A DNA stretch of 64,000 nucleotides from an uncultured Paracoccaceae bacterium (GTDB lineage: Bacteria > Pseudomonadota > Alphaproteobacteria > Rhodobacterales > Rhodobacteraceae). The position numbers and the translations under genes are program-made. Below, piece by piece: positions 29,116 to 64,000 of the stretch (position 1 is its first letter; each line of letters starts with the position of its first letter). Under the pieces are notes generated by a model that saw only the letters and a program-made list of their open reading frames with translations, did no database searches and had not been told where the DNA came from. The stretch is from NCBI GenBank assembly GCA_938028765.1, contig CALIZF010000008.1, positions 124,001-188,000 on the forward strand. The letters are read 5' to 3'.

Positions 29116-30273
29116 TCAGGCAGCGGCGGCGAGCGCGGCGATTTCGGTCTGGTAGGCCCAGTCGATCCAGGGCATCAGCGCCGCGACATCGGCGGTCTCG
29201 ACGGTCGAGCCGCACCAAATGCGCAGGCCGGGAGGCGCGTCGCGGTAGGCCCCAGCATCGAGCGCGACCCCCGCCTTCTCGAGCCGCGCTGCGACGGCCT
29301 TGGCGAAGGCGGCGCCGTCGGCGATGCGCGGGTCGGTGAAGCGCAGACAGACCGAGGTGCAGGACGCGGTCGCGGGATCCTCGGCGAGGTTCGCGATCCA
29401 GGGCCGCGTTGCGACGAAATCGGCGATGACCTTCGCATTCGCCTCGGCCCGCGCGATCAGCGCGGGCAGGCCGCCGATGGACTCGGCCCATTTCAGCGCC
29501 ACGATGTAATCCTCGACGCAGAGCATCGAGGGGGTGTTGATCGTCTCGCCCTGGAAGATCCCCTCGATCAGCTTGCCCTTCGCGGTCAGGCGGAAGACCT
29601 TCGGGATGGGCCAGGCGGGCGTATAGCTTTCCAGCCGCTCCACCGCGCGGGGCGACAGGATGATGACGCCATGCGCCGCCTCGCCCCCCAGGACCTTCTG
29701 CCAGGAGAAGGTGGTGACATCGAGCCTGTCCCAAGGCAGGTCCATCGCGAAGGCCGCGCTGGTCGCGTCGCAGATGGTCAGCCCGGCGCGGTCGGCCGGG
29801 ATCACGTCGCCCGAGGGCACCCGCACGCCCGCGGTCGTGCCGTTCCAAGTGAAGACCACGTCGCGGTCCCAGTCCACCCGGGACAGGTCCGGCAGGCGGC
29901 CATAGGGCGCCGTCGTCACCTTGGCGTCGAGCTTCAGCTGCTTGACGGCATCGGTCACCCAGCCTTCGCCGAAGCTTTCCCACGCCAGCATCTCGACGGG
30001 CCGCGCGCCCAGCATCGTCCACATCGCCATTTCCACCGCGCCCGTGTCCGACGCGGGGACGATCCCGATGCGGTAGTCCGAAGGCACGCCGAGGACTGCA
30101 CGGGTGCGGTCGATCGCCTCCTTCAGGCGCGCCTTGCCGACGGCGGCGCGATGCGACCGGCCGAGCGGCGCGGCGGCCAGTATGTCGAGCGTGAAGCCGG
30201 GGATCTTGGCACAGGGGCCGGAGGAGAAGCGCGGGTTGACCGGGCGCGCGGCCGGGGCGGGAAGATCAGCCAT
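29116..30273 (-). CDS. serC: Phosphoserine aminotransferase
   Basis: 385 aa, the alphaproteobacterial SerC type. Transfers the amino group from glutamate to 3-phosphohydroxypyruvate. The PLP lysine is in [15 protein letters not shown], and [16 protein letters not shown] is the conserved start of this branch. ATG 30273 follows GGAAGGAT; a longer in-frame reading to 30396 is not conserved. A CCCCTC/GAGGGG hairpin (30294-30311) lies in the 5' leader just ahead of the ribosome site. serA is downstream and serB divergent. Confidence 0.97.
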
Positions 30274-30404
30274 GGTATCCTTCCAGATATTCGCCCCTCG
30301 TTGGGGAGGGGTGTCCCGCCGCTGCAGGTACGCCCGGCGACGCGACAGCGCAAGTGAAATGTTCGGATGCGGCACATGCCGCGGCATCCGCGACACGCCG
30401 CAGG

Positions 30405-49198: not shown

Positions 49199-49411
49199 GA
49201 GGGGGGGCCTTCTGCCCCCCTCTTGCCTTCGGCAATTCACCCCCCGAGAGTATTTCCGACAAGATGAAGCAGGGGAGGCGCATGGTGTTCCGTCAGGGCG
49301 GCCAGGGCGGGACCGACGCGCAGCGGGCCGCGGTACCGCCGCCCGTCTTCACCTTGTCGAAAATACTCCCCGGGGGAGCCGCCCGCAGGGCGGCCGGGGG
49401 CGGGCAGCCCC
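49199..49411. repeat. Inverted pair of hairpin repeats between glpD and glpK (copy 1)
   Basis: Two copies of one repeat face each other around a 76-bp spacer (49271-49346). Each has a head reading, outward, CTTCA-CTTGTC (one variable base) then AAATACTC, a run of G, then two GC hairpins: TTGCC-GAA-GGCAA plus a G7/C7 stem in the left arm; GCCGCCC-GCA-GGGCGGC plus GGGGGC/GCCCCC in the right arm. The 310-bp gap has no supported gene. The same arrangement occurs at 61766-61995. Confidence 0.8.
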
Positions 49412-49493
49412 CGCGTGTCGCCGCGGATGCGGCGGCCAAGAAGGGGCGTGCGGCCGCAAGGCCGCGCCGCGTGGCACCTGCGGGAAGGGCAGC

Positions 49494-61033: not shown

Positions 61034-61734
61034 GCGCTCGGGGCCCCGCGGTCGGTGATGCTCGGCACCCTAGGCGCGGCGGTCTGGCGCGGCAAGCGCC
61101 GTCCACGCGCCCCGCGGCGTCCAGGGCCGCGGCGCAACACCCGCGCGGCCGTCCACCACAGGATGGCGATGTCGAGCCAGACCGTCCGCCGTCGCTGATA
61201 GATCAGATCGAGCCGCGCTTTCCGCGGCACGCAGCGGCGGGCATAGACGGCATCGGTCTCGGCCGGCGTCCGGCAGGCGGCGAGGATACGCTCTTCCCAC
61301 CGATGCGCCGCCAGGGTTGCAAGGCCCGTGATGCCGGGACGCGACCGCAGGACGGCGGCATAGAGGTCCGGGAACCGCTCGACATAGGCGCGCAGCGGCG
61401 GGCGCGGTCCGACCAGGCTCATGTCGCCGCGCAGGACGTTCCACAGCTGCGGGATCTCGTCGGCGCGCATCCGGCGCAGGATGGCGCCGGTCGGCGTGAT
61501 CCGCGCCGCCTTGTCGGCCCCCGTGACCCCCGAATCGGCCGGCGCGACCGTCATCGTCCGCAGCTTCCACAGCGCAAAGCCTGCGCCGGGCGCCCGCATC
61601 CGTTCCGACACATGGAACAGCGGCCGCCCTTCGCGCCCGAGCGCCCAGAGCGCCAGCGCCGCAAAGGGCAGCGCCAGCAGCAGCGCCAGCCAGAGCGACA
61701 CCACGACATCGAAGACGCGCTTTGCGGGCGTCAT
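61030..61734 (-). CDS. Sugar transferase (undecaprenyl-phosphate hexose-1-P transferase type)
   Basis: 234 aa. First gene of the exopolysaccharide operon; members load the first sugar phosphate on the lipid carrier at the inner membrane. An N-terminal membrane helix (about residues 8-32) precedes LWKLRTM, then RADEIPQLWNVLRGDMSLVG and PRPPL, the family signature. Unlike WcaJ-type proteins it lacks the N-terminal four-helix half, so it is the short PglC/RfbP-core type. The C-terminal 40 residues are Arg-rich and not conserved. Confidence 0.92.
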   Translation of the reverse strand: MTPAKRVFDVVVSLWLALLLALPFAALALWALGREGRPLFHVSERMRAPGAGFALWKLRTMTVAPADSGVTGADKAARITPTGAILRRMRADEIPQLWNVLRGDMSLVGPRPPLRAYVERFPDLYAAVLRSRPGITGLATLAAHRWEERILAACRTPAETDAVYARRCVPRKARLDLIYQRRRTVWLDIAILWWTAARVLRRGPGRRGARGRRLPRQTAAPRVPSITDRGAPSA

Positions 61735-61765
61735 CGCGCCCCCACACGCCCGGCCGCGCCCGTGC

Positions 61766-61995
61766 AGGGGGGGCTGCCTGCCCCCCCTCTCGCCTGCGGC
61801 AATTCACCCCCCCGGGAGTATTTGGGACAAGATGAAGCCCACAAGGGCAGCGGATGATTGCGCCGTCCGCGGAAGCGCAGGGATCCTGCATCGGCATCGC
61901 GCACGGCTGCGTCCCCTGCGGCGCCTGCTTCATCTTGTCCCAAATACTCCCGGGGGGTGAGCCGCGAAGCGGCGAGGGGGGCGGGAAGCCCCACT
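61766..61995. repeat. Inverted pair of hairpin repeats (copy 2)
   Basis: Arms at 61766-61837 and 61928-61995 face each other around a 90-bp spacer. The heads are exact complements over CTTCATCTTGTCCCAAATAC and CTCCCGGGGGG. Each head is followed outward by two GC hairpins (GCC-GCA-GGC and a G7/C6 stem left; GCCGC-GAA-GCGGC and GGGGC-GGGAA-GCCCC right). It lies between the sugar transferase and the epimerase genes. The spacer differs from that of copy 1. No supported gene in this 292-bp gap. Confidence 0.85.
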
Positions 61996-62026
61996 TGGGC
62001 CCCTGCGCCGGGGCCGACGGGCGCGA

Positions 62027-62830
62027 TCATGCCGCAAGCCCTGGCGCCGCGCGCCACTCTGCCGCGATGGCGGCCGGGTCGGCCGGATCGAGCGGCACCA
62101 GCGACGCAAGCAGGCGGCAGTCCATCACGGCATGGGCGACCGCCCAGGGCGGGGCGGGTCGCCAGACGTAGGGCACGCCCGCTGCCGCGAGGATTGCCGC
62201 GAGGTCGACCGCGCCGGGGCTGGCCACGTTCAGCACCGGCGGCAGCGCGGGCGCCAGCGCAAGCGCGGCGACCACGCGCGCCAGCGTCGCCGGGCCGATG
62301 CAGGACCGGCGAGGGCCGCTGCCGTCCGGGAAACGGTCGAATCGGATCGGCTGGCCGGCTGTCGCGGCCTCGACCGCGGCCTGCAGGGCGTCGGCCCCGA
62401 TCGCGTTGCCGATGCGCAGGACCGCGGCGCGACCGGCCAGCGCGCGCTCGGCCGCGAGCTTGGCCACGCCGTAGGGGGTTCTGGGTGCCGGGCGGCGCGT
62501 CTCGGCCGCCGCCGGCCCCGTATCGCCATAGACCGCGACGGTGGACGCGAACAGGACGCGCCGCCCGCGCGCGGCGGTGGCCACCGCATGGGCAAGGCGG
62601 GCGTTGATCGCAAGTTGGGCGTCGGTGCCGCGGGTCACGCCCGACAGGTCCAGCACCGCATCGCATGGGGGGATGGGGTCGGCTGAGAGCGGATCCCAGA
62701 GGGCCCAGCCCGGCCCGGCGGCGGCGCGCGCCTGCCAGACCGGGGTCAATCCCGTGGGGGGGCTGGCCAGCCAGGCTGCCCGCAGGCATCGCCCGATCCG
62801 CCCCGTTGCGCCGACCACCAGAAGCCGCAC
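62027..62830 (-). CDS. NAD(P)-dependent epimerase/dehydratase family protein
   Basis: 267 aa extended short-chain dehydrogenase-like protein. Rossmann loop VVGATGRIGRCLR near the start, FASTVAVYGDTGP with the Ser, and TPYGVAKLAAERAL with the YxxxK pair. It could act on a nucleotide sugar; its place behind the exopolysaccharide genes fits, but the substrate is open. The proposed start is GTG 62830 with GGAGGGG upstream; longer in-frame sequence to 63064 runs across the intergenic region. Confidence 0.82.
   Translation of the reverse strand: MRLLVVGATGRIGRCLRAAWLASPPTGLTPVWQARAAAGPGWALWDPLSADPIPPCDAVLDLSGVTRGTDAQLAINARLAHAVATAARGRRVLFASTVAVYGDTGPAAAETRRPAPRTPYGVAKLAAERALAGRAAVLRIGNAIGADALQAAVEAATAGQPIRFDRFPDGSGPRRSCIGPATLARVVAALALAPALPPVLNVASPGAVDLAAILAAAGVPYVWRPAPPWAVAHAVMDCRLLASLVPLDPADPAAIAAEWRAAPGLAA

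Positions 62831-62961: not shown

Positions 62962-64000
<1,039 letters not shown>

Follow-up and report, generated by a model that had tools for sequence, protein, structure and literature searches.

What is the paired inverted element that lies between two genes near the end of a 64,000-nucleotide stretch (hereafter the window) of the genome of an uncultured Paracoccaceae bacterium, and how did it come to be there? The original prediction proposed either a member of a non-autonomous repeat family, with a conserved frame around a variable cargo, mobilized by a REP-associated transposase (RAYT/TnpA_REP), or a structured RNA with a variable centre. The best explanation, given with moderate confidence, is a mobile repeat family of Rhodobacteraceae, dispersed and non-autonomous, of which the feature would be one copy in doublet form. 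The enzyme behind its movement is probably not a RAYT.

The window element and its relatives in the same genome

The composite element (61747–62032, minus strand) consists of two inverted units and a spacer, and its whole strand folds with a z of −9.1. It is bordered by two minus-strand genes, an epimerase gene upstream (stop at 62027) and a sugar-transferase gene downstream (start at 61734). One gene upstream of the epimerase, 62962–63894 (−) encodes a CcrM-like DNA methylase carrying a RAMA domain (PF01555 and PF18755). Unit 1 (61766–61837, +), delimited by its sequence, by the motif match and by the architecture common to complete copies, begins with a hairpin made of a G-run (61767–61773) and a C-run (61781–61787), continues with a second hairpin (61790–61802, one mismatch), TTCA and a second C-run (61807–61813), and ends, after GG, with the 22-bp head GAGTATTTGGGACAAGATGAAG (61816–61837). 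Unit 2 (61928–61994, −), recognized by sequence, motif match and architecture, has its 22-bp head at 61949–61928, its second C-run at 61957–61952, its second hairpin (GCCGC/GCGGC) at 61973–61961 and a first hairpin composed of a C-run (61981–61976) and a shortened G-run reaching 61994. The near-perfect complementarity announced for the heads (61813–61837 and 61928–61952) was confirmed, as the 31-nt arms at 61808–61838 and 61927–61957 are perfect reverse complements (100%). Both heads match the motif, which has 0 matches in shuffles of the window, and they enclose a non-coding spacer of exactly 90 bp (61838–61927, no strand). The other pair of the window, at 49.2 kb, comprises a unit located downstream of a glpD-like gene (49204–49269, +, head 49248–49269) and a unit located upstream of a glpK-like gene (49347–49412, −, head 49368–49347). 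Its spacer, previously given as 76 bp, measures 77 bp (49270–49346) and, as predicted, has no sequence in common with the 90-bp spacer.

The repeat is dispersed. Its 22-bp head, GAGTATTT-NNNN-CAAGRTGAAG, occurs in 55 copies in the draft genome (2.94 Mb, 75 contigs, 83.6% complete) when at most two mismatches to GAGTATTTNNNNCAAGATGAAG are allowed, and the reversed control gives 0. All 55 copies are intergenic, none of them overlapping by more than 10 nt a gene predicted by a simple codon-usage finder. The architecture of complete copies is conserved: a G-run/C-run hairpin, an optional second hairpin, a second C-run and then the head, which has the form GAGTATTT-N-CAAGATGAAG and is located 3' of the hairpins. 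In type A the second hairpin is present and, in most copies, TCA or TTCA comes after it; type B has a single hairpin (for example CCGGGGCGCTGCCCCGG) followed by ACCCCG and the head. The hairpin stems have many different sequences and keep their pairing: of 47 copies, 45 have a stem of at least 5 bp beside their second C-run, versus 6.0 in dinucleotide shuffles, this comparison being the test, since the list of stem sequences was picked for perfect pairing. The second C-run also tends to be as long as the G-run of the hairpin (32 versus 13.3 by permutation, which is significant), a figure that is inflated by related copies and is therefore only suggestive. Within the head, bases 9 and 10 are free to vary and the remainder is almost fixed, the fixed columns, unlike the variable ones, being partly a product of the copy-finding pattern. 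The assembly breaks inside or beside copies at eight contig ends (C18, C27, C31, C51, C59, C60, C62 and C75), so some apparent single copies may be halves of pairs. Two inward-facing copies on contig C67 enclose an ordinary-looking set of genes.

Eight head-to-head pairs were found in this genome, with spacers of 90 bp (five pairs), 77, 127 and 204 bp; were spacings uniform between 60 and 210 bp, the probability that even three pairs coincide would be 0.002. The 90-bp spacers mostly share no common sequence. The spacer of the window element and that at C30:14153 agree, ungapped, in 59 of their 90 positions (z 7.8); with the C51 spacer, the former gives a z of 3.3, all other comparisons being at or near chance. 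Of the predicted conserved frame around variable cargo, the frame stands, but the match with C30 shows that the spacer cannot be regarded as free cargo. In six of the eight pairs, the two heads do not complement each other at their variable bases, which suggests that sequence, and not pairing between arms, is the reason why the head is kept; the feature may nevertheless be a structured RNA with a variable centre. A decayed partner was recognized for at least one copy that appears single (C60:7809). Pairs with similar gaps are rare elsewhere (3 of 295 genomes, this one included). Among named relatives they occur in Pseudooceanicola and Rhodobacterales, and three Pseudooceanicola loci have gaps of 87, 99 and 98 bp; 90 bp is therefore not a family-wide constant.

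Insertion at overlaps of operon genes

The window element shares 82% ungapped identity over 286 bp with a copy on contig C30 (L022, 1306–1591), the flanking genes being unrelated and the homology stopping at the gene borders. The genes flanking the C30 copy, which we take to be ccmA and ccmB by sequence resemblance, overlap by ATGA in 21 of the other genera compared. In the genome studied here, ...TTCGCATGA and ATGAGGGCG lie 292 bp apart, and the stop and the start are both intact: an element is inserted at an ancestral gene overlap. Four other genera carry differently built members of the family at the same point, and one genus carries a different palindrome. In the same way, livG and livF overlap by ATGGCTGA in four genera and are separated here by a 110-bp interval that holds a type B insert, CATGGCTGAG standing at either border, while bchN and bchB, whose overlap is ATGA in most genera, are separated by a 70-bp interval with an element. 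At these two junctions, as at ccmA/ccmB, both the stop and the start codons are kept. The window junction has ATGA at both borders, one with the stop codon of the upstream gene (62027–62030, −) and the other with the start codon of the downstream gene (61731–61734, −), which would be the two sides of a target duplication.

Repeats of at least 9 bp flank 3 of 22 junctions, versus 1.7% for mismatched flanks. These repeats of 9–10 bp fit the empty sites; averaged over all junctions, however, the longest repeat is not significant (p 0.11), and whatever the mechanism, only insertions into an overlap that preserve both codons would survive. In gene trees, the inserts are scattered and require 4 to 7 changes. 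Few of the branches are well supported, and the trees do not separate repeated gain from repeated precise loss. In the genomes compared, the livG/livF inserts are all in sense orientation (L116, L117, L121, L134 and L140–L142) and the bchN/bchB inserts all in antisense orientation (L154, L156 and L165). Unrelated palindromic inserts that keep both codons were found at the same overlaps, in ccmA/ccmB of G074 (L090) and in livG/livF of G101 (L114). The ccmA/ccmB and livG/livF junctions may accept several kinds of element.

Transcript-level and protein-binding readings

The hairpins and the conserved tail could also act on transcripts, by setting the 3' ends or the stability of mRNAs within operons and between genes, the element being then kept by selection and spreading only slowly. 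The strong pairing of the hairpins, the many copies located just 3' of stop codons and the occupation of the same junctions in several genera, with a uniform sense orientation at livG/livF, would fit such a role, as would the tendency of the second C-run to match the G-run in length, which makes an alternative pairing possible. However, single copies between co-directional genes are 8 in sense and 9 in antisense orientation (convergent genes flank 8 others and divergent genes 4, with genes called on both sides), the hairpins match no terminator consensus (hairpin plus T-run), Rfam gave no family and only a sub-threshold SRP match, and copies lie within the ccmAB, bchNB and livGF operons, where termination would be harmful. 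We thus regard a transcript-level element as rather unlikely. Ordinary terminators are unlikely too, given the balanced orientation, the lack of terminator matches and the lack of an Rfam family. The two circumstances that the original prediction had named as speaking against it, a spacer belonging to a neighbouring gene and arms explained as ordinary terminators, were not found. The sole Rfam match of the window at the gathering threshold is a serC leader RNA (RF00517, 72.4 bits) at 30270–30321 (−).

Alternatively, a DNA-binding protein (of the nucleoid, of DNA repair or of another kind) could recognize the repeat, which would have spread by recombination, the hairpins being secondary. The bipartite head, its unconstrained gap and the occurrence of one dialect per genome are compatible with this, but it leaves unexplained the stems that vary in sequence and yet remain paired, the fixed spacing of the doublets and the precise insertion at gene overlaps, and it appears quite improbable.

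Distribution, mobilizing enzyme and related systems

The general head pattern was found in 31 of the 120 genera/genomes sampled from Rhodobacteraceae, with up to 125 copies and a control of 0, and a second dialect pattern in 21 of the 120 family genomes. Each genome has one head dialect, for example NNNGCAAGATGAAG or NNNAAAAGAAGAAG. The richest relatives are G134 (125 copies), G128 (74) and G130 (43), all at least 99% complete. Plasmids gave two weak matches and phage sequences none.

Could a RAYT whose gene is missing from the draft, or which was active only in the past, have moved these elements as REPs or REPINs? Doublets of fixed spacing with decaying partners resemble REPINs, and the NF047646 profile detects RAYT genes in 7 of 15 copy-rich genomes. 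An earlier negative obtained with PF01797 over 22 genomes was rejected as false, since this profile, at an E of 0.001, missed RAYT genes (L179–L184) picked up by NF047646, and it was replaced by an examination of the RAYT neighbourhoods. The repeat lies beside none of the eight RAYT genes found in other relatives when some 1.5 kb is inspected to either side (a contig end shortens this in one case), and several of them (among L179–L184) carry GTAG-tagged palindromes or REPs instead. No RAYT was detected in the genome studied here (83.6% complete) by either PF01797 or NF047646, nor by NF047646 in G134, G128, G130 and four other copy-rich genomes, that is, in seven copy-rich relatives in addition to its own genome. 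Transposition of the IS200/IS605 type is known for leaving no target duplication, unlike what is suggested here. RAYTs being absent from the most copy-rich genomes and the repeat absent beside them, this reading is largely refuted and seems very improbable. The predicted non-autonomous family is therefore retained, as a dispersed, probably mobile one with a conserved frame and REPIN-like doublets, without its predicted mover. A route through RNA copying has no support, as this genome and several of the copy-rich relatives lack reverse transcriptases (PF00078), which do not track copy number over 15 genomes.

Returning to the mobile repeat family, the following model can be drawn. The unit consists of a folded part, with hairpin 1, in most cases hairpin 2, and the second C-run, followed by the 22-bp head, whose two fixed blocks and free gap of 2–3 bases would form the recognition site of a mobilizing or binding protein. 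A REPIN-like doublet arises where two such units face one another with a set distance between them. New copies, probably moved by an enzyme acting in trans, would enter intergenic DNA, including the overlap of consecutive operon genes. Insertion would produce, as part of the reaction, a short target duplication, of about 9–10 bp where it is cleanest. This would restore both the stop and the start codon and let both genes survive. The repeat has no linked transposase, which speaks against the model.

REPINs are inverted REP doublets that form hairpins and have a conserved spacing of 71 or 110 bp (Bertels and Rainey 2011, PMC3116915). Like them, the repeat described here is short, intergenic and present in tens of copies, occurs also as singlets, some with a decayed partner, and keeps a doublet distance (here 90 bp) across a spacer that is itself little conserved. 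Unlike them, it has no cognate RAYT and shows signs of target duplication, its head faces the spacer from a position 3' of the hairpins, and its hairpin stems are free in sequence. It also differs from the GTAG/CGTC-tagged REPs (PMC3733652) as it bears neither tag at the base of the palindrome; the true GTAG REPs found beside RAYT genes in relatives are a separate family. As a whole, the evidence points to a dispersed, REPIN-like and probably mobile repeat family without RAYT. Bacterial MITEs are non-autonomous, dispersed elements with target duplication. The repeat resembles them by being non-autonomous and dispersed and may share the duplication, of about 9–10 bp, that is suggested at some junctions, but inspection of its outer ends by eye revealed no conserved or recognizable terminal inverted repeats. 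It is conceivable, although doubtful, that it represents a distinct class of small mobile elements, whose enzyme would read the bipartite head and the folded flank and which would have repeatedly entered stop/start overlaps of operons across genera, in an orientation specific to each locus, separating the genes without damage.

The repeat is common in a large and well-studied bacterial family and seems to lack a published description, none having been found in a literature search with thin coverage of subscription journals. RAYTs being missing from the most copy-rich genomes, finding the mobilizing enzyme is a direct and answerable question. The loci described above clearly illustrate how an element can settle in the overlap of two operon genes without damage to either, and relatives provide the empty sites.
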